Shown: piece by piece, positions 96-20,584 of the stretch
How positions within the stretch are numbered: position 1 is the first letter of the stretch
Layout of the letters: each line of letters opens with the position of its first letter
DNA from: a virus
IMG/VR virus record: IMGVR_UViG_3300000116_000222
Location: 1-23,955 of that record
Reading direction: 5' to 3' (one strand)
Length of the DNA stretch: 23,955 nucleotides
Program-made: the position numbers and the translations under genes
The notes under the pieces: model-generated
Seen by the model: only the letters and a program-made list of their open reading frames with translations
What the model was told of the DNA's origin: nothing
Database searches by the model: none

Positions 96-1379
96 TTAAC
101 TTAAAGCACCATAATGAGTACCACTCTTTAATTTTACAGGAAACTTATCACTAAGTATCGTTTGTAAATCAATTAATATTTGTTTACCATCTGACTTAGC
201 AACATCAAATATAAATGCATCATATATATAAAGAACTAATCTTGTTTGTTTTATTTTTAAGTAATCTTGTATAATTTTTATCTTACGAATGTTGGTTTCT
301 GTTTCAGTTGCCTGTATGTAATAATTAAACAATTTTTGTGAATGTATTTTGGGATGGTCTTTTTTTCTAATAGTATAACTACCACATTTTACTTCTCCTT
401 TCTTATTAAATTCTTCCCAAATAATGTTTATAAAGTCCTGTGTTTTTTTAAAGAAAGGGTGGTATAAGTTCGCCTTATCTATACCTCCATATATTTGTTT
501 AAATGTAAGTGTTTTACTTTCCTTATATTGTTGTGGAGTAATATTCTTGGATTTAAAATAAATTTCCGCAAGTGTGTTGTGTACGTTGCCTTCAAATTGA
601 TAGTCGACTATATCGCCTATTAGACGGGGATGATAGCCATCATAATCCATTTCTACAAAAAAGTCATTGTCAGGTTCGAATGTGTCTCTTTCGCCATTGT
701 CGTGTTTTAATCCTACAAAATTTATTCCATTAAAGTTATTTACAGGTCTTCCGGTTGTAGTGTATGGATTATACCATCCGTATATATGGTCTTCTTTTAT
801 AGAGAATTTTTTACACTTTGGTTTGAAATAGTCGTCAAACTTATCATTAAATTTTAAGCTATTCTTTTCCAACTCATATAAAACAGGTAACAATGTGGAA
901 TCATAATACTCATTAGTTTCACTTGGAGAATCATCGATTATAGCGCGTAACTTTGCTTCACAGCGCTCTAGGTGTTTTCCAATTGGTATCATTTTATTCA
1001 CCTTAGTATGTGGGAATTTTCGGTAATACCATTGGTGTGCTTGGGTTGTATGTTTGTCTAAAGGAGCTATTGTATGTTGTATATCCGTATAAGGGATGTG
1101 TGGGGCCGCATGTAAGCTGCTTTTCTTATCTAAAACACAAAATTCATATTCTTCCAATAACCCCAATACATGATCTCTGTCTTGATTTATACATTCTAAA
1201 TGACTTAACGGAATAATGTAGCTTTCTTTATTTACATTAAGATAAATGGCTATAATTTCTGCTAACGCAGGGTGTGTGTTGTCATTGCCTTGAATAAATT
1301 CAAGATAAGGTAAACCATCTAGAGATAATTCCTCTTTTAGTTGGTTTAATTGATTTTTTGTTTCGATAAGGTAGAACAT
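96..1379 (-). CDS. Divergent family A DNA polymerase, palm/fingers core (427 aa)
   Basis: The family A polymerase motifs appear in canonical order. YTTTGRPVN (206-214) matches the T-x-TGR element. EMDYDGYHPRL (243-253) is motif A with catalytic D245. KTLTFKQIYGG (289-299) is the O-helix, keeping the residues equivalent to E. coli Pol I K758, F762 and Y766. FNYYIQATETETN (351-363) matches the conserved Gln motif, and YIYDAFIFD (384-392) is motif C with D387. Two canonical positions differ: the steric-gate Glu of motif A aligns with H250, and the Glu after the motif C Asp aligns with A388. The roughly 200 N-terminal residues contain YIIPLSH and VLDKKSSLH, perhaps a worn 3'-5' exonuclease-like domain without an obvious DxE site. 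At 427 aa it is far shorter than Pol I and shorter than T7 Pol (704 aa). It is the last gene of the tail operon, 26 bases after the 297-aa gene. T4-type phages normally replicate with a family B enzyme, so its role here is unclear. Family assignment is good; activity is inferred. Confidence 0.82.
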   Translation of the reverse strand: MFYLIETKNQLNQLKEELSLDGLPYLEFIQGNDNTHPALAEIIAIYLNVNKESYIIPLSHLECINQDRDHVLGLLEEYEFCVLDKKSSLHAAPHIPYTDIQHTIAPLDKHTTQAHQWYYRKFPHTKVNKMIPIGKHLERCEAKLRAIIDDSPSETNEYYDSTLLPVLYELEKNSLKFNDKFDDYFKPKCKKFSIKEDHIYGWYNPYTTTGRPVNNFNGINFVGLKHDNGERDTFEPDNDFFVEMDYDGYHPRLIGDIVDYQFEGNVHNTLAEIYFKSKNITPQQYKESKTLTFKQIYGGIDKANLYHPFFKKTQDFINIIWEEFNKKGEVKCGSYTIRKKDHPKIHSQKLFNYYIQATETETNIRKIKIIQDYLKIKQTRLVLYIYDAFIFDVAKSDGKQILIDLQTILSDKFPVKLKSGTHYGALS

Positions 1380-2310: not shown

Positions 2311-5300
2311 TTAAGTAGTTCTTGAACCTAATCCTGCAGAAGTACCATTATTATCTTCCCAATCTTCTATGGCATCATCTATATCAAACTTTAAATCTTC
2401 CAATTCTTCAAAATCACTACCAGCTATCGTGAATTCTATTTCTTGATATACAGAATCGTTATAAGCTACTCCAGCTGTAGCTGCTGCTTTTTCATAAACA
2501 TCTGCTCCATTTACTATTGTAGGATCTGGTCTATAGTCACCCCATGTTGTAAGTTCTATATCAATTGATCTATATGTTTCAATAATATTACGTGCAGGTG
2601 GTGGATTTCTTAATTCTGGGAAATCTTCATAAAGAGCTGTAATCCATGGTTCATATCTAGTATAAGCTGCTCCTACATTTTCATTATCTAATCCAGGGAA
2701 ATCTTCAATAAGAAAGTTATATTGATATCTAGACTCATATAAATTAATCATTTCTTTTAACTTTTGGTTTATAGTATTAACTTTAGCGTCATTTCCTCTA
2801 AAAAACTCTTCAGCTAAAGCACCATTTTGGGGATTTTTAGCTGATTGATATAAATAGGCATAAGTATAAGGTGGAGGTCCATTTACTCTCCTTTTTGTTG
2901 ATTCTAATTTACCTGCGTCTATTTCTTCCTGTGTTAATCCTGTATTTCCTATTAAGGCTTTTTCTTCTACAACTGCTTCTTCTAATACACAAGCTTGAAG
3001 TTCTTCATCAAAATATTGTCCTTCAGGACATTGATCTTGTTGTTCTATTTGTTGTTGTTCAGGTGTTTTAGTTTCTACTTTAGATTCTTCTGCAGAATTA
3101 TCTTCATACTTAGCTTCTTCTGAAATAACTACAGATCCTGCTTGTCCACTTCCACCACCATTACCTCCTGTTCCTTCTTTTCTAATTTTAGTTCCTGTAG
3201 CTTGTTCATTAACATCTGATGCTATTATAGTTAATTGTCCTGAAATAGTAGTGGTCCAATCTTGACCTGATGTTATTTTTTGGTCTTCAGCCATTGTTAT
3301 AAATAAAATTTGTCTTCCCTCTGTTTTTTTATAAGCTGCCGGTAGTCTAGATGGATTTATTTTAAATACATTTCCAATTATAATTCCCCCTATACCGTCC
3401 ATTTGAGCATTAAATTTTAAAGGTATAATGTCTGAAACCTGTTCTACTGGTTTTCTTTTTATGTCTCCTTTTGTAAATTTACTTCCATCTGCGTAGGTAC
3501 CATCTTCTAAATGTTTAGTTTCCGTTTTAGTTATTTGACTAATAATGGTTGATAGATTTTGTTTTTGTCTTGCTATTTCTTTACTTTCTTTTGGTTTTCC
3601 ATCACTGTCTAAATCTGAGTATTTTCCTTGTAAAGATTTTGCATAAAATACTTTTAAACTACAAAAAGCAATAAAAGTATCTAATATACTTGTTTCAAAT
3701 GCTGTTCTTTCTCCTTGTTGTGCTATTTTTGCTGATTTTAAAGCTTCTAATTCTTTTTTATCTTGGTCTTCTTTTTCGGCTTTTGTTTTTATTCTTGGTG
3801 CATCTGGTTTAATTGGGGTTGAAAATCTTTGTCTTATATTTTTATTTAAGGCTGAAAATGTAGATTGTTCTAAAGAAGAAATAGAATCGGGATTTTGGGC
3901 TACTACCCCAATTGTAGCCATTAAAGCACTAGGTACAGTTGATGTGTAAGAATAATCTCTAAAAATAGAATCATTACTTTGAATATTTAGTTCTATTATT
4001 TTTCCTTCTTTAACTTCTAAATCTAATTTTGATTCTGGTTGAAATTGAATGTCTATTACTCTAACTACATTAGGTCGTTCATTGTCTGTTTGTATTTCAA
4101 ATCTATGTTGACCCCCACAAGATGCATTTACGTCGTCAAATATCCTTTTTATGTAATCAAACATATTAAAACTGTCATTTATGCTTTGGTCTAGCGTTCC
4201 AGCTTCTGATAAACCAACATTATATCTCATTGATTTGTAAACTCTATCTAAATGTTCAACATTTAAAAAGATTTGGCCTATTTGTCTTTCAGCTACTCCT
4301 TCTACGTTTGTATCAAGATCATAATTACACATTTCTATAACCTTATCATATTTAGTTGTTTGACTCATGTCTTTAGGATTTCCTACACCATCATCAGCAA
4401 ATTGAGGTTGAGGTCTATTATAAAAAGCCTTAACATTAGGATCATTATTTTTTTCCTTTATAAATCTCATCTGGTGAGGTAACATACACACTGTGGGATC
4501 TATAGACATATCTAAAAAATCATCTCTAATTAAATCTTCAAATGTTTTAATACCTACATCTGCTAAGTCACCACCACTTTCTACTAACTTCTCAATATCA
4601 TCTAATCTATCATTTATATCTTCTGCTCCTTCACCAAAAACTTCTTCAAATTGACCATTTCCAATTCCAAACCAACCATTTGTTCTATCATCACTTAATG
4701 CTAGATTATATAATCTTTTAAATTCTTTTATTAATTCAGGAGATAATCTTTTAGAAGTATAAGCTAGAGGTTGTATATGTTTACCTTCTATAGAAGTAGA
4801 ATTATCTTGATTTTTTATTATATCTCGATCTTCATTTACTATAACATCTGTTTTAAAATATATAAGGGGACTATCACCTAATTGGGTTCTTTCCATTATA
4901 TTTCTATTTAATACATGTGCTAAAAAATCCCATCTAATATATGTGTTTTTAGATTTTACACTAGCTATTACTTCATCTTCATCTTCAGGATCTTCTTCAA
5001 CAATTAAATCTTGATCATTTCTTAACATAAAGCTTTGTAATATAAGATCTCTTATTTCTCCATTTTGTAAATCTTTAAAAGGTCCATATATATTTTCATT
5101 AACGTTAGCATGAGTTTTTATCCAATTTAGGTCTAAATAATCAGTTAGATCTCGAGCTTTTTGTAATCCAGATTCTACTCCAAAGAAGTTTTGTGTTGCT
5201 CCCGCTATTTTTCTAAAAAAAGTACCAGTGTTAGATAACCAATTTTCACCCTCATCATAACTATTTTTATCTTTTTGACTAGAATATCCCATTAATATTT

Positions 5301-6294: not shown

Positions 6295-6597
6295 TTAAGA
6301 ATTAATTCTTTTATACTCATCAATTACAGATTGTGTGTCTTGGGGGATTCTAATTTGTAAACCTCCTTTAACAAAAAAAGAATCTCTTTTTACTTTACCT
6401 AAATTAGCCATAGTTATTATCCACCACAATTCTATGTCTCCATAAAATTGTTCTGCTAATAAGTCTAATCTGTCTTCACTTTTAGTTATAATGTATATAT
6501 CATTAAAGGATAAGGGAACCACAGGATATTTAGCATATTTATAATATCTTTTTCTAGAATTTCTTTTTATTGTTAAAGGTACTAATCTATTTGTCAT
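6295..6597 (-). CDS. LysM-like baseplate protein (gp53-like, 100 aa)
   Basis: Residues 38-88 form a LysM-like module: YIITKSEDRLDLLAEQFYGD then WWIITMANLG and a C-terminal QIRIP. This pattern (ITxxxDRLDxLAxxxYGDxxxWWIIxxAN) is characteristic of phage baseplate proteins carrying a LysM fold, such as T4 gp53 and the tail X/LysM proteins that connect tube and baseplate. There is no signal peptide, and it is probably a virion component rather than a secreted cell-wall binder. It is packed between the 848-aa tube-like gene (3 bases upstream) and the hub-like gene (3 bases downstream), so co-translation and joint assembly are likely. The gp53 label is by domain and position; sequence identity to T4 gp53 itself would be low. 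Confidence 0.78.
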   Translation of the reverse strand: MTNRLVPLTIKRNSRKRYYKYAKYPVVPLSFNDIYIITKSEDRLDLLAEQFYGDIELWWIITMANLGKVKRDSFFVKGGLQIRIPQDTQSVIDEYKRINS

Positions 6598-9153: not shown

Positions 9154-9918
9154 TTATGATGGAAAGTTATTTAAATATTCCCCACTTGATGGTAAACCAC
9201 CATCTAAATCGTAAGTACCACCATTTACTGTAATAACTGGAGTTTGATGTGAATATTGGTAGTTTTGATTTAATAGAGCTTCATGTAAATCTACTCCATT
9301 TAATTGTTTACCTGTTCCCCCTTCATCTCCAAAATTAGGTCCTGGTGTACCATCTAAATCTTGAAATGGTGAATTACTGTCAAATCCTGGTACTTGTGCT
9401 AATGAATTTATATGTTTTTGAGAGGCATCATCAATAGGTAGTTGTGATAGAGGACCTGGGTTTCCATCTAAATCTTGAAAGGGTGAATTACTATCCCCAC
9501 CTGGTACTACTTGTAAACTATCTATATGTTTTTGAGAAGCTGCGTCTGTTGGTAATTGTGATTGTGGGCCTTGTACTCCATCTAAATCTTGGGTGTTAGA
9601 AGGATTATAAGTTTGGCCTGTATTTGTACTTACTGCATTTTGTGTAAGTAAGTCTACCATATGATCCCCAGTTGTACTTTGAAAAGGAGAATTAGTAGTT
9701 CCATTTAAAGTATTAAAATTAGGATCTGGATTTCCATCTAAATCTTGGTGTGGTGAATTTGATGGAGGTCCTGGTACTTGTTGTAATGAATCTATATGTG
9801 TTTGTGAAGCATCTGTAGTTGGTAGTTGAAATGTTGGTCCTTGTTGACCATCCATATTTTCAACTGGATCGTTTCCTGATACTAAATCGTATAATGATGT
9901 TAAATTTTTAAGTCCCAT
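9154..9918 (-). CDS. Tandem-repeat protein with DLDG motifs (254 aa)
   Basis: I do not recognise the family. Most of the protein is a repeat of exactly 38 residues beginning DLDG-x-xGP, followed by QLP-x(3)-ASQxHIxSL and VPG-x(2)-SNSPFQ. Clear copies start at residues 21, 111 and 149; a degenerate, longer copy (52 aa) starts at 59 and a partial one at 187. A distinct C-terminal part (206-254) includes LHEALLNQNYQYSHQ and YDLDGGLPSSGEYLNN. There is no signal peptide or membrane segment. It is the first gene after the candidate promoter at 9928-9942 and sits between tape measure and the 848-aa baseplate-like gene, suggesting a structural or assembly role. Asp-rich DLDG turns could bind metal, but nothing proves this. 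Repeat number probably varies among relatives. Confidence 0.72.
   Translation of the reverse strand: MGLKNLTSLYDLVSGNDPVENMDGQQGPTFQLPTTDASQTHIDSLQQVPGPPSNSPHQDLDGNPDPNFNTLNGTTNSPFQSTTGDHMVDLLTQNAVSTNTGQTYNPSNTQDLDGVQGPQSQLPTDAASQKHIDSLQVVPGGDSNSPFQDLDGNPGPLSQLPIDDASQKHINSLAQVPGFDSNSPFQDLDGTPGPNFGDEGGTGKQLNGVDLHEALLNQNYQYSHQTPVITVNGGTYDLDGGLPSSGEYLNNFPS
9361..9858 (-). repeat. Coding 38-residue (114-bp) tandem repeats
   Basis: Codons 21-186 of the repeat protein form four units with DLDG (first copy NMDG) at the head of each. Spacing is 38, 52 and 38 residues; the units at 9475-9588 and 9361-9474 are the most similar pair, also at DNA level. A partial fifth unit continues to about 9328. Confidence 0.8.
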
Positions 9919-9945: not shown

Positions 9946-12447
9946 TTAAGCGAAACTGCTTTGATTTTTTAAAGTGTTATTTTTTATTCCTGTTTGTGCT
10001 AAGTTACTTCTTGAACCGAAATCATCAAATTTAGTAGTAGCTGTAAGGTTTACATTACCCATTGCACTAGCTAATTTATCGTAATCAAATTCAGGTTGAG
10101 CTTGTACTGTTGTATTTGGTGGAGCAAATCCCATTTGGCTTGCTTTACTTAAAGGAACTATAGCTTCGTTTTCTCCTCCTTCACCCACAACTACTTCTAC
10201 TGCTTTAGTTGCTACTCCTCCATCTTTCAATCCTGGTTTTGCCCCTGCTGGTCCTGATGATAAATCGCCCCCATCCATACCATAATCCATCATAGAACCA
10301 TAGCTAGCCGCTGTTGCACCAAAACCAGTCATTTCTTTATCTTTTCCTAAGAAACCCAATGTGAATTTATTTATTGCAATATCAATAAAATCAACTATAT
10401 TTCTTATAACATCTACTACGAATGTTAATATTAATTTTACAGCATTAAGAAGGGGCATTATGTCTTTTACAAATTCTCCTACCATATCCATTATGGGAGT
10501 AAGAAGATCTAATATAGGAAGTAAAGGAGAAATAATGTCTGCTAGTAGACTTTTTAATTTATCCATAGTAGCATTAAATTTATCTTGAGCTGTGGTTTTT
10601 TCCAATGTAGCTGCTAATTCATCTTTCCCCATTGCTCTTAATTCTCGAGCTGTTTTACCTTGTACTTCTTGTTTCATTAAAACATCAGCTAATTGATCTG
10701 ACTGCATACCCATAGATTTGGCTAATGCATCTTGTTGGAGTGTATTCATTTTACTAAATTCAGTAAAATTACCCATATTAGCTGCTAATTCTTTTGCAAG
10801 GGTAGCTTGATCTCCCGTTAAGGCTGCCATTCTAGCTTTTTCTAGGTTTAATTGTTTACCTGTTAGTAATTCAGCGTTTAATTCATTACTTATAGAGGAT
10901 TCAAATTCTAATAATTGTTTACCAGCTGCTGCTACATCTCCTAATTCCATTCCTAGAACTTTTGCTTGAGTAACAGCTTTTGCTATTTCTTCAGTACTTC
11001 CTCCTAATTGTGCTCTTAATTGGCCTGTAGTTTTACCTACTGCTTCCATTACTTGTCTAAGATCAATAGCAACACCTGATTGTCTTTGCATTTCGTAAGA
11101 AGTTGATAATGCAGACTCATAATTGTCTCGCATTGATCCCCCTGTTACAACAGTTTGTCCTGCTAAACCAGCTGCTGCCTCCCCAGTCATTTTCATTTTT
11201 TCTAATAACTGTGTAGATGTTGTAAGTATTTCTGAATTAAATACTACAGCTGTACCTAATGTTTGATTTAATGTATTATTTGCTTTTATTAGCTTAGCAG
11301 TAGTTACAAATACATCCCCAGAGGCTGCAGCCATATTAACAAATGCGTCTCTTTGTGCTAGAGCCTCATCTCTGCCTAAGGTAAGACCTTTTCCTAGCTC
11401 TGTTACTTCTTCATCTACTTTTGCTACTGCTTCTACTATTTCCATGATTATTCCTACCCATGGTATAGCTTTTGTAAAAGTCTTCGCTAGTACTTTTACC
11501 ATTTTCCCCATACCTTTAGTTATAGCTTTCATAAAACCACCCGCCATTCCTTTTAATCCTTTACCTGCTTTTGCTACTCCTTTTGTTGCATCAACCCCTC
11601 CTTTTTTAGGTTTTAATTTTTTAATAGGAGTTTCTTTTGCTCTTGTTTGTAATTGTTTTACTTTATCTCCTTTTACAAAACGTTGACCTGGTCCCTTAGG
11701 ATCCATTCCTTTTTTATACCTAAATCTAGTTTGATCTTTACCACTTTTGGTTTTATATGAAAGTTCTTCTATTTTATTTAATTCTTCTTGAGCTGTTTTG
11801 GTTTTATCTTGTTTTTCAATTTTTACTTCTGCTGCTTTTTGTTGTATAGTTTCTTGTTCTTTATATACCTTTTTGGCTTCTTTAGCTCCCTCCTGAAAAG
11901 CATCTTTTATACTTCCAAAAGCTTCACTAACCTTATCAGGTATTAATTCACTTATCCCTTCAAAAAAACTTGCCCCACTTTTCTTTTCAATTTCAGATGC
12001 TTTATCTTGAACACCTCCAGCTGCTTTATCCATTTTTTCCATGGATGATAAGGCTTCATCTATTTCTGCAGTTATATCTTTATATAAAGATACTTCTTCT
12101 TTTAAACCCTCTTTTTTAGCTTTTGCCATTGCTGATTCTGTTAAAGCACGATCAGCTGATAATTGTTTTATTTTGTCTTGGAGTTTTGCTCTTTCTTTTT
12201 CTATGTCTACAGACATAACATCACCTTCATTTGCTTCTTGAACTAAATCTCTTAAAAGTTTTTTATTGTCAACCGCTTTAGACATATCCTGTCTTACCTG
12301 TTTAACAAGCTCGTTTTCTTTAGCTTGTTGTTTATAAGACGCTTTCATAATACTAACTCTCTCAAGTAATTCAGCATTAGCTTCTTTATATGCATTTACT
12401 AATTGATTAGTAATGTCTAAGGATTTTTCGTCGTCTTGTTCAGGCAT
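9946..12447 (-). CDS. Tail tape measure protein (833 aa)
   Basis: The tape measure sets tail length and is threaded inside the tube. Residues 1-170 are charged and probably coiled coil. A Lys/Gly-rich segment follows (about 270-310), then a hydrophobic stretch with KAIPWVGIIMEIVEAV (about 320-340). A long Ala-rich helical region precedes a second hydrophobic region (about 630-700, LLADIISPLLPILDLLTPIM onward). Near the C-terminus is VVVGEGGENEAIVPLS (about 750-770), which matches the GE-x-G-x-E-x-IVPL signature common at the end of tape measures. Position right after the gp26/gp51-like chaperone pair is the standard place for this gene. At the usual 0.15 nm per residue, 833 aa predicts a tail of about 125 nm. 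It has its own candidate promoter (12460-12474) and follows a terminator. Confidence 0.9.
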   Translation of the reverse strand: MPEQDDEKSLDITNQLVNAYKEANAELLERVSIMKASYKQQAKENELVKQVRQDMSKAVDNKKLLRDLVQEANEGDVMSVDIEKERAKLQDKIKQLSADRALTESAMAKAKKEGLKEEVSLYKDITAEIDEALSSMEKMDKAAGGVQDKASEIEKKSGASFFEGISELIPDKVSEAFGSIKDAFQEGAKEAKKVYKEQETIQQKAAEVKIEKQDKTKTAQEELNKIEELSYKTKSGKDQTRFRYKKGMDPKGPGQRFVKGDKVKQLQTRAKETPIKKLKPKKGGVDATKGVAKAGKGLKGMAGGFMKAITKGMGKMVKVLAKTFTKAIPWVGIIMEIVEAVAKVDEEVTELGKGLTLGRDEALAQRDAFVNMAAASGDVFVTTAKLIKANNTLNQTLGTAVVFNSEILTTSTQLLEKMKMTGEAAAGLAGQTVVTGGSMRDNYESALSTSYEMQRQSGVAIDLRQVMEAVGKTTGQLRAQLGGSTEEIAKAVTQAKVLGMELGDVAAAGKQLLEFESSISNELNAELLTGKQLNLEKARMAALTGDQATLAKELAANMGNFTEFSKMNTLQQDALAKSMGMQSDQLADVLMKQEVQGKTARELRAMGKDELAATLEKTTAQDKFNATMDKLKSLLADIISPLLPILDLLTPIMDMVGEFVKDIMPLLNAVKLILTFVVDVIRNIVDFIDIAINKFTLGFLGKDKEMTGFGATAASYGSMMDYGMDGGDLSSGPAGAKPGLKDGGVATKAVEVVVGEGGENEAIVPLSKASQMGFAPPNTTVQAQPEFDYDKLASAMGNVNLTATTKFDDFGSRSNLAQTGIKNNTLKNQSSFA

Positions 12448-12505: not shown

Positions 12506-12772
12506 TTAAAAGTTATATGTTGAAGAAGGATTTACATTAGGACCTGCTACTTTATTATTTGTTGATTTATTTCTTTGCGTAGTCTTATTTCGTTCTTCTT
12601 CTTGTTTTCTGTGGTAATCGTTTATCTTTTCAATGTGATAACGTCTTAACCAAATTGGCATGTTATATATTTCCGAGTGTATGAACCCACCACCTCCATG
12701 GTACACTAAATCGTGAATTTCGGTAAATATAACACCCCGGTATTTAGGCGTCAGGCCAAAAAAACGAAACAC
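12506..12772 (-). CDS. gp51-like reading frame, probably expressed by frameshift from gp26-like gene
   Basis: The frame has no ATG. It opens after a TAA about 10 codons upstream of the T-run, and the only start is a GTG (12772-12770) buried in the gp26-like gene without a ribosome binding site. Its sequence includes FTEIHDLVYHGGGGF and IYNMPIWLRRYHIEKIN, a pattern I associate with gp51-like tail/baseplate assembly proteins of T4-type phages (histidine-aromatic helix, NxPxWLR, then charged coiled coil). It overlaps the end of the gp26-like gene by 29 bases in the +1 (equivalently -2) frame, and the overlap contains TTTTTTT at 12764-12758. The most economical reading is a programmed frameshift giving a 345-346-aa fusion, as in the G/GT chaperones of lambda and equivalents in Mu and P2. 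The C-terminus is Asn/Ser-rich. The coding frame is well supported; the frameshift is inferred. Confidence 0.8.
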   Translation of the reverse strand: MFRFFGLTPKYRGVIFTEIHDLVYHGGGGFIHSEIYNMPIWLRRYHIEKINDYHRKQEEERNKTTQRNKSTNNKVAGPNVNPSSTYNF

Positions 12773-13544
12773 CGAGGGGAATGTTTACATCCTCGATGGT
12801 ATCGCCGTTTTCGAAATCGATGTCAACTGACATATCAATATCGGGCATAATTTTTGATAGATAATTTCTAAATGCTTTAGAATCTCTTGCTAAAAATTTA
12901 TAATCTACAAATTCTCTAATTTCTTTCATATCTCTATCACCATTTACTGATAATAAAGTATGTTTTAATCTTGTAGTTAATTCTGAGGAAGATTGTTTGT
13001 TAATCTTCTTAAGTCCTTTTAATTCTTTTTGGATTTTTTCTTCATCACCATGAGTTAAAAATTTAAAAGTAATTTCTACTTTAGATGTAGGAAGAGTAAA
13101 AGCAAATTCATTTCTTTTTTCTATCATTAAGCTTTCATCTAACTCCTTATCATCTAATTCAGTTAAATCAATAGTAATTTCTTCTGAATCTCCTGTTTTT
13201 GGGTTAGTGTAAGTAAATGTATAATCACTACCATAACCTAAAATACGAGCTGCTATTAATATTGCATTTTTATCTCCAATTAGTAAATCATTATAATTTA
13301 TTGATGTTACAATTAATGATTGTAACAATTTATTGATAACTGTACCATTTTTTATATAGTTTTGGTTAGTCAATATATCTTCTTCACGAGCTGTCATATA
13401 TTTCATTTTTATGACTCCCGATCTTAAAGGATGCCCATCAGGATACAATAAACCTTTTGAAGGTAATGTAACATCTTCAGTAGGATATTGGTATGTTTCT
13501 TCCTGAATTTTAGGGACTTGGGGGGTGTTTGGTATTTGTTCCAT
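12744..13544 (-). CDS. 26: T4 gp26-like baseplate hub/tail assembly chaperone (266 aa)
   Basis: The protein contains the hallmark segment of the T4 base plate protein family (gp26, Pfam T4_baseplate): DVTLPSKGLLYPDGHPLRSG (24-43), then IKMKYMTAREEDILTNQNYI and NKLLQSLI. A beta-rich middle (about 105-170) has TYTNPKTGDSEEITIDL and FLTHGDEEKIQKEL, followed by a helical C-terminal part ending IPLGVSFFWPDA. T4 gp26 is about 208 aa. In T4 it is needed for baseplate hub assembly; the location between tube and tape measure here points to a tail-assembly-chaperone role. It has its own candidate promoter (13571-13585), and terminators lie on both sides of the gp26/gp51 unit, so its dosage is probably set separately. 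The last codons carry the T-run where the ribosome may shift into the gp51-like frame. Confidence 0.85.
   Translation of the reverse strand: MEQIPNTPQVPKIQEETYQYPTEDVTLPSKGLLYPDGHPLRSGVIKMKYMTAREEDILTNQNYIKNGTVINKLLQSLIVTSINYNDLLIGDKNAILIAARILGYGSDYTFTYTNPKTGDSEEITIDLTELDDKELDESLMIEKRNEFAFTLPTSKVEITFKFLTHGDEEKIQKELKGLKKINKQSSSELTTRLKHTLLSVNGDRDMKEIREFVDYKFLARDSKAFRNYLSKIMPDIDMSVDIDFENGDTIEDVNIPLGVSFFWPDA
12758..12764 (-). promoter_or_regulatory. Candidate programmed frameshift site (T7)
   Basis: In the sense strand the gp26-like frame reads TCG TTT TTT TGG, four codons before its stop. A +1 shift at the second TTT continues as GGC CTG ACG (Gly-Leu-Thr) in the gp51-like frame; a -2 shift gives one extra Phe. 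A -1 shift hits TGA after two codons, so classic -1 slippage is not productive. The slip window between the upstream stop in the new frame and the gp26-like stop is only about 40 bases, and this run is its only slippery tract. Confidence 0.72.
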
Positions 13545-13641: not shown

Positions 13642-14127
13642 TTAGTAATTTAAGATGGCGTAATCCATTACTATAGTCATATTAATGTTAGCTGGTGTGT
13701 CTGATGTCCAATCCATATCTCCAAAATTAGCTGACTGACAATAAGCACCTTTTAAAATCCATTCTTCAACAACATCTCCTACAGGACCTAATGTATTAAT
13801 TCTAATGTCTTTTTTATAAAAATCAGAATAACCATCTCTACCTGTAACTGACTCATGTGACAAACGAACCCATTCCATTACTGCTTGTGCACCTGATGGT
13901 GTTACTGGATCATAAAGATCACAGGTAATGTTTTCCCAGTTAGCTTTTCCTTTAATTTTTCTTTTCACGTTAATATGATCAAGAACTACTTCATTAAATG
14001 AAATACTTGGTCTTCCTATTTTTTTAATAAGGTATGCTGGGATACCATCGATGAACATTAGGAACCTGTTTTGCAACTTTGGTTCAAATGCTGTGAACAT
14101 CATTTCGTTTGTGTTTAATATTGCCAT
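13642..14127 (-). CDS. 19: Tail tube protein, T4 gp19-like (161 aa)
   Basis: The protein has the size of T4 gp19 (163 aa) and the family layout: an N-terminal arm then FEPKLQNRFLMFIDGIPAYL (14-33), the loop-strand segment RPSISFNEVVLDHINVKRKI (39-58), DLYDPVTPSGAQAVMEWVRL (71-90), and the C-terminal strands ILKGAYCQSANFGDMDW and INMTIVMDYAIL. It polymerises into the inner tube of the contractile tail. It lies directly after the sheath gene, the usual order. It has its own candidate promoter (14149-14163) and terminator (13595-13622), making it a single-gene unit, which fits a protein needed in high copy. The leader is AATAAAACAAAAAGATG. Confidence 0.93.
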   Translation of the reverse strand: MAILNTNEMMFTAFEPKLQNRFLMFIDGIPAYLIKKIGRPSISFNEVVLDHINVKRKIKGKANWENITCDLYDPVTPSGAQAVMEWVRLSHESVTGRDGYSDFYKKDIRINTLGPVGDVVEEWILKGAYCQSANFGDMDWTSDTPANINMTIVMDYAILNY

Positions 14128-14179: not shown

Positions 14180-17100
14180 TTAGTAACCTCCGCCACCACC
14201 TGCTCCACCACCACCATCAAATGTAGCTCCTGTAGGTAATACGTTAAAGTCTAATACTATGAATTCAGCTGTTTTGGCTGGTTGTAAATATATCGCGCCA
14301 ACTAATTGGTTTCTATCAATTACATCTGGTGTGTTATTGCCTTCGTCCATTTGTACTCTAAATGCATATAATCCTTGTCTTTGTTGTACTGATTCTAAAT
14401 ATGGATTAACAATATTTAAGAATCTATTTCTTGTAGCTTGTGTATTTTGTTCAAATACTAAGTATCTTGATGAACTTGCAATAAATTTCTTAAGAGCAAT
14501 CATTAATCTACGAACGTTAATTCTATCTAATGCTGTTGATCTTTCTTGTAATGTTTTCTGACCCCAAATACAAACTCCTGTTTGTGGGAATGTTGCAATT
14601 GGATTAATTTTAGCATCATATAAAACATCTCTTTCAGCTTGATTTAATCTCATTTTAGCTTCAATAACATTTCCTAATACACCTCTATTTAAACCTGCTG
14701 GTGCAAACCACTCTGCTGCTATTCTATCTGAAGCTGCTATAGCACCTGGTACAATTACTGAAGGCGGTACTAATACTGGCTTATTCTTGGCAGTATCTAA
14801 TACTTTAACCCATGGATAATATACTGCAGCGTAATTAGTGTCTAAACCTGCTACTTTACTTACTGCTGTGTTTACTGATGCTCCTACTTCATTTAAATCC
14901 ATTACGAAAAATGCATCTCCTCTTTCTTCACACATGTCAATACCCGCATTTGTAACTAATGGGTGTAATGAGTGAATAACACCTGGCATAGCTAACATAT
15001 TGATATCATATTCATCTTGGTTTGCAATTATATCTAATGCTTTTTTATATCCTGTGTATCCTGCTTTTGATGTTGTACTTAAATCAAATCCATATAAATT
15101 AGCTGCTGTGATATTAGCTCCAATTTGTTTTACAACATCTGAACTAATACCATCATCTCCACCTTGGAAAGGAACTGTAAATTTAAGTTGGTTTGCAGTT
15201 GGTCCTGTTGCTCCTGTTGAATCAATTGAAGCACTTAATGAACTTGTCCATAATGCTGAGTTTGCATGACCGTTATAATTTTCTACGTTAAAATCACCTG
15301 ATACATTTGCTGTGTTATTATCTGGTAATGGTTGTAAGAAATTTTCATTATCTGATGCTTTATCAATAAATTTAAATCCTAAATATGCTTTAGAACTATA
15401 ATTTCCACCTATTACTTGATCCCCTTCATAAGAAGCTGATGGGAAAGCCATGTCTATACCAAATGAACTTGTATTTATAGTATTTCTTACTGCTTTAAAT
15501 CCTTTAGGAGATAATTTAGGTGAAAGTGCTCTTTCTTCTACTGCATTTGATACTTCTATTCTAATATAATTTGAAATATTTGGATAATTTCCAAGTAATT
15601 CAACTTTTCCTAATGTATCATTATATTGTGGGTATCTATCTCCAATTGATCTCGCAATATATCTTGGAGAATCTGGATCTAAGGATACATTATTAAATTG
15701 TTCTAAAATAACAGGAGCTTTATCTTTATCACCTGTTTTTCTTATAATAACTGAAAATTGTGAATATTGTTCAATACCATCAATGTCTCCTGGCTCCTTT
15801 AAATTTGCAATTGAAACCTTATAATCATGACATAAATGTTTTCCATGATCTAAAGTATGAACTTTAAATAATTCTTTTGTTGTTTTATTAACATCTAAAA
15901 ACTGTGAAGTAATAAATGGTGTAGAAGCATATCCATATCCTTCTGTTTGACCAATTTCTCCACTATATACCATATCAGTCGATTGTGTAACAAATAAAAC
16001 TGATTTTCCTGATGATAATTGATATCCTGATACATCTGTACCTTCCTGAGTTATAGCTACTGAGGCTGTTGTTGCACCAAAAGATGTAAATGCTGCAGCT
16101 GTTGTAAATCCTGCATCATTACTTGTAACAGTTACTTTAAAACCTGTAGTATCTATAGATGCTGAAAAACCTGCTATACCAAGTTGATCAGATGATGTAT
16201 TATCATTATGTAAACCATTGATTGCATCTCTAGTTGCTTGAGCTAATTGTTCTCCTGTAATTGTTCCCGCTAATACTGCGTAAGTATCTAAATTAATTGG
16301 AACTGCTGATCCAGTTGTTCCTGTTGCAGGAGTTGCATCTATTGATGTGTCTACTGTTGCTCCTGCTACTGGTGTAGGGATTAATCCTGAACCAGAGAAG
16401 AATAATGTGTGTGAATATGCTGCTGAAGAATGTGTTAAATCTTCATCGTCTGAAATTTGTAAGAAAATTGCACCCGAAGCTTGCAATGTCATATTTACTA
16501 AACTTGAAGTACGGAATGTTGCATTAGCGAAAGTAATGTCTACATTTTCTGCTTTAGTACTAAAAATAGATGTTTGTAAGTTCTTAAAATTTAAGTATGT
16601 GTATCCAGGAGTACCTGCGTAAGCATTTGCTCCTGTTTTACTATTATTTGGATTACTACCTAACTGCTTAAATACATAATTTTTATTAGCAGGATTCATT
16701 GAAACAGATGACAATGTTGTAGTAGTAACGTTAGTTCCTTGAAGTGTTAAACCAAAATTTTCTGATAAATCTGGTCCTATATGAGTATTAATAGATGCTG
16801 ATTGCATTGTTGAATCCCCTAAAGAAGGTTTAGCTAATGCTTTAGAAGGATAAACTGCACCTAACATTACATGCTTTCCTGATGAACCCGAAGCTGCTAG
16901 TACAAAAAATTCATTAGTACCATTAGCATATGTGTAACCACCTCCTGCTAACACTCTACATACAGTAACGGATCCTGCGTTTTTTAAGTATTCTCTAACT
17001 GTTTGTGGGACATAAGTTTCTGAACTTATAGGTCCGAATCTTCTTTCATATTCTGCGAAACTTCTTACTACTGTTGGTACAAACGCAGGACCTTTTTCCG

Positions 17101-17203
17101 TTGGTCCAATAATTGCAGCGCCAATTGCGCCAACTCCTTGTGGTAAGAATGATAGGTCGTTTTCTCTTGTAAATACACCTGGTGAAATAATTTGTTCTGC
17201 CAT
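14180..17203 (-). CDS. 18: Contractile tail sheath protein, T4 gp18-like, enlarged (1007 aa)
   Basis: The N-terminus ISPGVFTRENDLSFLPQGVG (5-24) followed by AAIIGPTEKGPAFVPTVV (28-45) and YERRFGP is diagnostic of myovirus sheath proteins. The central sheath core includes YKKALDIIANQDEYDINMLA (about 710-730) and MPGVIHSL. The C-terminal domain has GVCIWGQKTLQERSTALDRI (about 880-900), RRLMIALKKFIASSSRYLVF and QLVGAIYLQPAKTAEFIVLD, which form the inner ring contacting the tube. T4 gp18 has 659 aa; the extra length seems to lie between about residues 120 and 460, rich in Thr, Ser, Ala and Gly, probably surface-exposed domains. The protein ends GGGGAGGGGGY. One candidate promoter lies 40 bases and another about 100 bases before the start. 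Confidence 0.95.
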   Translation of the reverse strand: MAEQIISPGVFTRENDLSFLPQGVGAIGAAIIGPTEKGPAFVPTVVRSFAEYERRFGPISSETYVPQTVREYLKNAGSVTVCRVLAGGGYTYANGTNEFFVLAASGSSGKHVMLGAVYPSKALAKPSLGDSTMQSASINTHIGPDLSENFGLTLQGTNVTTTTLSSVSMNPANKNYVFKQLGSNPNNSKTGANAYAGTPGYTYLNFKNLQTSIFSTKAENVDITFANATFRTSSLVNMTLQASGAIFLQISDDEDLTHSSAAYSHTLFFSGSGLIPTPVAGATVDTSIDATPATGTTGSAVPINLDTYAVLAGTITGEQLAQATRDAINGLHNDNTSSDQLGIAGFSASIDTTGFKVTVTSNDAGFTTAAAFTSFGATTASVAITQEGTDVSGYQLSSGKSVLFVTQSTDMVYSGEIGQTEGYGYASTPFITSQFLDVNKTTKELFKVHTLDHGKHLCHDYKVSIANLKEPGDIDGIEQYSQFSVIIRKTGDKDKAPVILEQFNNVSLDPDSPRYIARSIGDRYPQYNDTLGKVELLGNYPNISNYIRIEVSNAVEERALSPKLSPKGFKAVRNTINTSSFGIDMAFPSASYEGDQVIGGNYSSKAYLGFKFIDKASDNENFLQPLPDNNTANVSGDFNVENYNGHANSALWTSSLSASIDSTGATGPTANQLKFTVPFQGGDDGISSDVVKQIGANITAANLYGFDLSTTSKAGYTGYKKALDIIANQDEYDINMLAMPGVIHSLHPLVTNAGIDMCEERGDAFFVMDLNEVGASVNTAVSKVAGLDTNYAAVYYPWVKVLDTAKNKPVLVPPSVIVPGAIAASDRIAAEWFAPAGLNRGVLGNVIEAKMRLNQAERDVLYDAKINPIATFPQTGVCIWGQKTLQERSTALDRINVRRLMIALKKFIASSSRYLVFEQNTQATRNRFLNIVNPYLESVQQRQGLYAFRVQMDEGNNTPDVIDRNQLVGAIYLQPAKTAEFIVLDFNVLPTGATFDGGGGAGGGGGY

Positions 17204-19705: not shown

Positions 19706-20584
19706 TTAAGGTTTAAATAAAGATTTAAGTTCATCTATTTGTTTTTGTTGTTCTTTAATACACTCTACTAATAAAGGTATAATTCTATTATACTTAATAG
19801 TTTTATACTCATTATCAAAGGGTGCAGGTTCAATTGCTTGAGGAATTATTTGTTCTATTTCTTGGGCTATCATTCCTATTTCATTTGTCTTTCTACTAGG
19901 ATTAAAACCTTTTTCTTCTACATCTTTTTTCCAATCATAATAAACACCTCTTAATTGTTTAATTTTATCTAAGGGATTAGGTATTTCTATTATATTTTCT
20001 TTTAAACGTTTATCTGAAGCAAATTCTATAACATCACCATCTGTTTCTATTTTTCCTGCAGATGATCCGTGTGCCTTAACATTAAGATTTCCATATACTT
20101 CTATTAATGTATTAGTATCAGTATTTTTAAGTACAATTCTTGATTTTGATGTGTCTCTATTACATCTTAAATCTAAATCAGTATTATAGGAACTAATTTT
20201 CCCCGTATTCACACTTATTTGATCATTAAAATAATATCCTAGTGAAGCACCCTGTTGCATAAAATGACAAAAAGAACTATTAGCTGGTCCTACATCAATA
20301 TGACCAAAAGAAGATACAATTCTTAAAGTACCCTGAGTAGCATCATCTCTTTTTCCTATTTGGACAGTAGAACCATCAGATGGTGTGCTGGGGACATTTG
20401 ATAAAATTATAGGATCATTTGTGGTACTTTCTTGTAAGGCATTTAAATCAAGAGTAGTAGCTACTTTAAAAATAGATTGATTTGCTTTATAATATAAGTC
20501 TCCCTTCTTATCATCAATTACTAAAATTTTGGAATTAATTTCAGTTAGTGAAGGGGCTCTAAATTTTATTTTAACATTATTCAT
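19706..20584 (-). CDS. Tail fibre/spike with C-terminal S74 self-cleaving chaperone (292 aa)
   Basis: Residues 1-185 form a fibre-like beta part, including ATQGTLRIVSSFGHIDVGP and the strand-rich SRIVLKNTDTNTLIEVYGNL. From residue 186 the protein is an intramolecular chaperone of auto-processing fibres (Peptidase_S74): FASDKRLKENI (188-198) holds the catalytic pair Ser190 and Lys195 in the S-D-x-R-x-K arrangement of endosialidase-type chaperones. It continues with LRGVYYDWKK, GMIAQEIEQIIPQAI (237-251), YNRIIPLLVECIKEQQKQID and a terminal coiled coil. The family rule is that the domain trimerises the fibre, then cuts itself off just before the Ser, here Ala189|Ser190. It may fold other fibre proteins of this operon only if they interact; that is speculation. 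It begins 17 bases after the 164-aa gene. Confidence 0.9.
   Translation of the reverse strand: MNNVKIKFRAPSLTEINSKILVIDDKKGDLYYKANQSIFKVATTLDLNALQESTTNDPIILSNVPSTPSDGSTVQIGKRDDATQGTLRIVSSFGHIDVGPANSSFCHFMQQGASLGYYFNDQISVNTGKISSYNTDLDLRCNRDTSKSRIVLKNTDTNTLIEVYGNLNVKAHGSSAGKIETDGDVIEFASDKRLKENIIEIPNPLDKIKQLRGVYYDWKKDVEEKGFNPSRKTNEIGMIAQEIEQIIPQAIEPAPFDNEYKTIKYNRIIPLLVECIKEQQKQIDELKSLFKP

Follow-up and report, generated by a model that had tools for sequence, protein, structure and literature searches.

The analysed stretch of DNA, a 23,955-base IMG/VR virus fragment (hereafter the window), very probably carries a tail assembly chaperone gene pair in which a +1 shift at the site TTT TTT T|GGC makes a 345-aa GT-like fusion protein. 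Programmed +1 frameshifting at this conserved site is strongly supported by sequence comparison, because the downstream frame keeps a fixed +1 offset and a dN/dS of 0.15, the site retains its TTT codon, the relatives share no start codon, and constraint acts on both frames of the overlap. On the same comparative grounds the architecture of the locus, the conservation of the site and its offset, the coding selection in both frames and the homology to a -1 version of the pair, and via that version to T4 gp51, can be taken as established, while ribosomal (not transcriptional) slippage, the +1 step, its efficiency and a chaperone function of the products are what we infer.

The genes in question lie on the minus strand in the order sheath, tube, gp26-like gene, +1-frame ORF, tape measure and further tail genes, and the order of tube gene, gp26-like pair and tape measure gene is identical in Flavobacterium phage immuto. 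The gp26-like protein matches PF12322 (T4_baseplate; E 7.3e-9, 36.1 bits, above the curated cut-off of 24.5) and phrog_150 (E 3.1e-16), and the +1-frame ORF gives a weak match to DUF6760 (PF20546; E 6.4e-4, 20.2 bits, below the curated cut-off of 27). For the tape measure protein no convincing family match was obtained in Pfam and phrog profile searches.

Features of the tail gene region in the window, with the basis of each assignment
Feature	Position	Strand	Basis
gp26-like tail assembly chaperone, short form ("G"), 266 aa	12744..13544	-	PF12322, phrog_150, location between the tube and tape measure genes
Slip site, seven T, 0-frame TCG TTT TTT TGG	12758..12764	-	G at 12765 (non-T) precedes the run
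Dual-coded overlap, slip site to gp26 stop (FFWPDA* / FFGLTPK)	12744..12763	-	CCT and GAC codon conservation
+1-frame "T" domain coding, 85 aa after slip	12506..12763	-	Weak DUF6760 match; dN/dS 0.15
Predicted +1 frameshift product ("GT"), 345 aa	12506..13544	-	Translation with TCGT=S
Tape measure protein, 833 aa, next gene downstream	9946..12447	-	Position and length; annotated counterpart in Flavobacterium phage immuto
Tail tube protein, next gene upstream	13642..14127	-	phrog_4542 tail tube, E 5.6e-29
Tail sheath protein	14180..17203	-	phrog_23, E 2.1e-74
gp53-like baseplate wedge protein	6295-6597	-	Among tail genes past the tape measure

Some other products of the window are of separate note. 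The tail sheath protein is 1007 aa long, far longer than the 71-kDa T4 sheath, with the sheath domains within its last third. The tape measure gene is followed by a gene for a 254-aa repeat protein (9154-9918, minus strand) with repeats such as QDLDGxPGPxSQLPxDDASQKHIDSL, for which profile searches gave no convincing family match. A tail-fibre-type protein (19706-20584, minus strand) has a C-terminal S74 self-cleaving chaperone domain (E 8.2e-17), and a 427-aa protein (96-1379, minus strand) matches DNA polymerase family A in its C-terminal part only and below the cut-off.

At the junction the gp26-like ORF, whose C-terminus reads ...GVSFFWPDA*, ends with the 0-frame codons TCG TTT TTT TGG CCT GAC GCC TAA, from which the downstream frame is offset by +1 (equivalent to -2). 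A sequence-only reading of the window had proposed that the two overlapping ORFs are joined at the T7 run (12764-12758) in the +1 or -2 frame into a product of 345-346 aa; the coordinates, run and offset are all correct, and translation yields exactly 345 aa with the +1 step and 346 aa with the -2 step, both reaching the same frame. It was equally right that a -1 shift leads to a dead end, TTG GCC TGA bringing a stop after two codons, and that the downstream frame lacks an ATG. This frame opens 38 nt upstream of the gp26 stop, with about 7 codons between its opening and the T run. Ahead of the conserved domain the only mechanical start is a GTG at 12772, whose counterpart is missing in some relatives. 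In the same genes of the 107 relatives described below, T7 occurs elsewhere only 15 times in 73,866 nt, and the T-run site with its offset at the end of the gp26-like gene can be regarded as more than chance.

The relatives were gathered by protein searches (about 36-99% identity) and comprise 107 distinct loci from IMG/VR contigs, MAGs and two isolate phages, mostly marine T4-related phages; the counts cover related sequences and not independent events, and no probability is attached to them. Comparison of the junction across related phages, which the sequence-only reading had proposed as a check, bore the arrangement out: the downstream frame is +1 in 107/107 loci, the first Phe codon of the site is TTT in all of them, and a T7 or T8 run is present in 101, being broken as TTTCTTT or TTTCTTC in the remaining 6. 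The slip site reads TTTTTTTGGCC in 96 of the 107 loci, TTTCTTTGGCC in 4, TTTTTTTTCCC in 3, TTTCTTCTCCC in 2, and TTTTTTTACCC and TTTTTTTATCC in 1 each. The base preceding the first TTT is C in 82 loci, G in 23, A in 2 and T in none, in contrast to the third codon positions of these genes, which are about 40% T and 41% A. Distant phages with a like layout (Bacillus SP-15, Listeria LIS04, Streptococcus GXN1 and LR756508, the last with the site TTT CTA TTC) also have the +1 frame at a Phe-Phe or Phe-Leu site.

An assembly error in the homopolymer was ruled out, as 107 distinct sequences, two isolate genomes among them, share the arrangement, and the loci L073 and L076 were ruled out as exceptions, both showing the usual site and +1 offset when read from inside the gene. 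Contigs binned as Woesearchaeota and Thaumarchaeota MAGs (L230 and L234) have this phage locus and its slip site, and these assignments are probably binning errors. Another distant relative, LR756511 (L031, about 4001-4989), combines a G GGT TTT heptamer and a TAATG restart with a downstream frame in -1.

The broken runs bear directly on how the frame is changed. The same frame would be reached if the ribosome moved -2 and not +1, as in Mu-like phages, giving the 346-aa product, and T7 does permit the second Phe codon to be re-paired two bases back; at TTTCTTT and TTTCTTC, however, a -2 move from TTT fails to re-pair and from CTT the Leu tRNA would have to sit on TTC, whereas the +1 move from TTT to TTC re-pairs fully at all six sites, and the LR756508 site fits only +1 from TTT. 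The -2 step is accordingly rated as unlikely, and +1 is favoured on these pairing grounds. It is very unlikely that slippage of RNA polymerase on the T run, rather than of the ribosome, makes the fusion: the seven-base homopolymer it would use is found in most members, but the +1 offset survives at sites left with a run of three T (the six loci with TTTCTTTGG and TTTCTTCTC, and also LR756508), and the strong constraint on the base before the run falls outside the homopolymer. Both a -2 move and polymerase slippage would be best served by the homopolymer, which is interrupted in these six loci and in LR756508.

No start codon of the downstream gene is conserved among the 107 relatives; a conserved ATG with a ribosome binding site had been named in the sequence-only reading as an outcome that would speak against frameshifting. 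Over the span from the opening of the frame to 20 codons past the slip, ATG is missing in 73/107 loci, ATG, GTG and TTG are all missing in 27, and in 25 loci the +1 frame opens merely 1-3 codons ahead of the slip site. Within the overlap the Pro codon has the highest synonymous conservation excess in the gp26-like gene and is CCT in 107/107 loci, where the rest of these genes uses CCT for 43% of its Pro codons. Of the 91 loci with Asp, 90 have GAC, against 22% elsewhere; the bases fixed in CCT and GAC are those required by the +1 reading for Leu and Thr. The +1-frame constraint starts at the slip site, inside the overlap, and past the gp26 stop the dN/dS among the relatives (677 pairs) is 0.15 in the +1 frame, the two alternative frames giving 0.96 and 1.87. 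Translation of the +1 frame from the slip site and coding selection in both frames across the overlap are thus strongly supported by the pattern of substitutions.

Separate translation of the T domain from an internal or coupled start could draw on weak GTG/TTG starts in some members, including GTG 12772 in the window, and on the -1 relatives, in which an ATG follows the gp26 stop in 34/62 and KVP40 has TAATG. Nevertheless, this explanation is very unlikely for the +1 clade, which has no conserved start codon and in 27/107 loci none at all, in which the constraint of the +1 frame begins at the slip site within the overlap, and whose two domains are fused in one polypeptide in other lineages (T4 gp51; in-frame genes). 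In public annotation the T domain of Flavobacterium phage immuto (L025:4722-4970) is mis-annotated, only from an internal codon at 4860, and that of Microcystis phage Mel-JY01 (L026:4737-4973) is mis-annotated from a non-ATG start within the overlap.

In the proposed mechanism of programmed +1 frameshifting most ribosomes would complete the G-like protein of 266 aa, and a minority would shift +1 at TTT TTT T|GGC, where the Phe tRNA in the P site would re-pair one base downstream, on TTT (or TTC), and decoding would go on in the +1 frame to give the 345-aa GT-like fusion with the T domain. All 107 sites permit such one-base-forward re-pairing of the Phe tRNA (TTT to TTT or TTC). On the lambda model, the tape measure protein would be coated by the short form, and a few copies of the fusion would recruit tube subunits. 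Among possible stimulators, downstream RNA structure gave no strong signal (mean z -0.36), and Shine-Dalgarno (SD)-like sequences were not consistent (36% versus 13% background), with none adjoining the site in the window. GGG is the codon at position -9 in 35 of the 71 loci with a Gly codon there, against 8% background, and is absent from the window; it is suggestive of an SD-like stimulator in part of the clade.

A second group of phages, comprising cyanophages, KVP40, Sinorhizobium phiM12, Delftia phiW-14 and Pelagibacter HTVC008M, has, behind its gp26 homologue, a short -1-frame "gp51" that is preceded by the slip site T TTT TTC or T TTT TTT. This pair is homologous to the window pair and is likewise joined at a Phe-Phe poly-T site, in the same gene; in contrast to the window pair, the frame is -1 and the base before the run is always T, whereas in the +1 clade it never is. 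The distinct cyanophage-type IMG/VR contigs (L146-L225) have T TTT TTC as their heptamer and a -1 offset in 62/62 cases, and the ATG after the gp26 stop, used to annotate a separate gp51, is present in 34 and missing in 28. In profile comparison the +1 fusion matches the -1 cyanophage fusion (278 columns, E 2.6e-12), which in turn matches the complete T4 gp51 end to end (231 columns, E 1.2e-17), 0/25 column shuffles reaching the score in either case. The sequence-only reading had called the downstream frame gp51-like, which holds insofar as the whole fusion corresponds to the whole gp51; the downstream ORF, however, represents only the final ~45 aa of the T4 protein. Direct profile comparison of the +1 T domain with the gp51 C-terminus gives no match (E 0.54, no better than shuffles), the connection being made via the cyanophage -1 domain (E 1.5e-7, then 3.3e-10).

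In T4 itself the two proteins are paralogues. PF12322 is matched in its entirety by gp26 and by gp51, the latter having ~47 extra C-terminal residues, so that gp26 resembles a short form and gp51 a fused one. The T4 proteins share their family with the window pair but, as the sequence-only reading had stated, come from two separate genes, which are divergently transcribed so that no frameshift is possible there. Campylobacter phage CP81 (L145, 1443-2755, minus strand) has two gp26-like ORFs in succession, of which the second is a little longer; this suggests a duplication into a short and a long copy as in T4. In two Bacteroidota genomes (L248:859-1623 and L249:859-1623) PF12322 (E 2.5e-9) and DUF6760 (PF20546, E 1.5e-6) share a single 255-aa frame in injection-system-like loci, adjoining sheath and tube genes. 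In a 45-sequence tree, with long branches and arbitrary rooting, a branch with support 94/68 sets off all the +1 members, and the T4 pair falls among the -1 members.

According to PMC10885494 and PMC12846349, T4-like tail assembly chaperone genes were identified by Vladimirov, Gautam and Davidson (2022); the former source describes some T4-like phages with a short and a fused copy in place of frameshifting, and the latter poly-T -1 signals in T4-like chaperone genes. The proposal of the sequence-only reading that gp26/gp51 is the G/GT equivalent therefore stands, in part, as an idea already published. In the study of Sullivan et al. 2010 the cyanophage and vibriophage gp51 were found to be without about the first 200 residues of T4 gp51 (PMC3037559), and T4 gp51 is essential but absent from the finished particle (PMC3004832). 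No description of the +1 clade was found in the part of the literature covered, and, with the general idea of a frameshifted T4-like chaperone known, the conserved, dual-coded +1 site with a non-T base before the run looks new. We give an even chance to a joint reading in which there is no earlier description of the +1 branch, to which Bacillus phage SP-15 and Flavobacterium phage immuto belong, and an ancestral gp26 plus T-domain family has long kept a fused chaperone by four means: +1 (the window clade), -1 (the cyanophage/KVP40 side), in-frame fusion (the Bacteroidota loci) and duplication (T4). In this joint reading it would largely be the base ahead of the T run that sets the direction of the shift at the same Phe-Phe codons, being T in every -1 case and in no +1 case.

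A clear and testable +1 site thereby joins the T4-like tail chaperone family, alongside the reported -1 sites and the no-frameshift solution of T4, and missing or cut-off annotations, such as that of the T domain in Flavobacterium phage immuto, are corrected. Moreover, the +1 and -1 members, slipping at the same two codons, constitute a natural experiment on the direction of ribosome slippage.

Structure prediction of the fusion against known tail chaperones had also been proposed in the sequence-only reading. The AlphaFold2 model of the 345-aa fusion has a pLDDT of 83.7, with high confidence in the gp26 part (above 90 in most blocks) and low confidence in most of the T domain except the helix 297-328, the alignment having been made without T-domain rows. 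Fold search in a viral library returned gp26-family baseplate hub proteins, and in the PDB nothing significant, the HK97 tail assembly chaperone 2ob9 being listed only at E 4.0 (TM 0.47 by target, probability 0.16); the gp26 alignment likewise found no match among PDB sequences.

Among known systems, lambda gpG/gpGT and other frameshifted chaperones have, as in the window, a short ORF and an overlapping downstream frame between the tube and tape measure genes, the two being joined at a slippery site near the 3' end. The lambda shift is -1 (PMC5009743), unlike the +1 of the window. For the SPO1 gp10.2/gp11.1 tail assembly chaperone the record annotates a +1 ribosomal slippage joining two tail chaperone frames; the SPO1 pair is not recognisably homologous to the window pair, because the SPO1 genome has no phrog_150 match. 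In prfB (release factor 2) the +1 slip occurs at CTT TGA C, with the P-site tRNA moving from CTT to TTT. The variant sites TTTCTTTGGC (CTT TGG C) of the present clade resemble this prfB slip, which however has a stop codon in the A site, whereas the variant sites have Trp there and no consistent SD-like stimulator.
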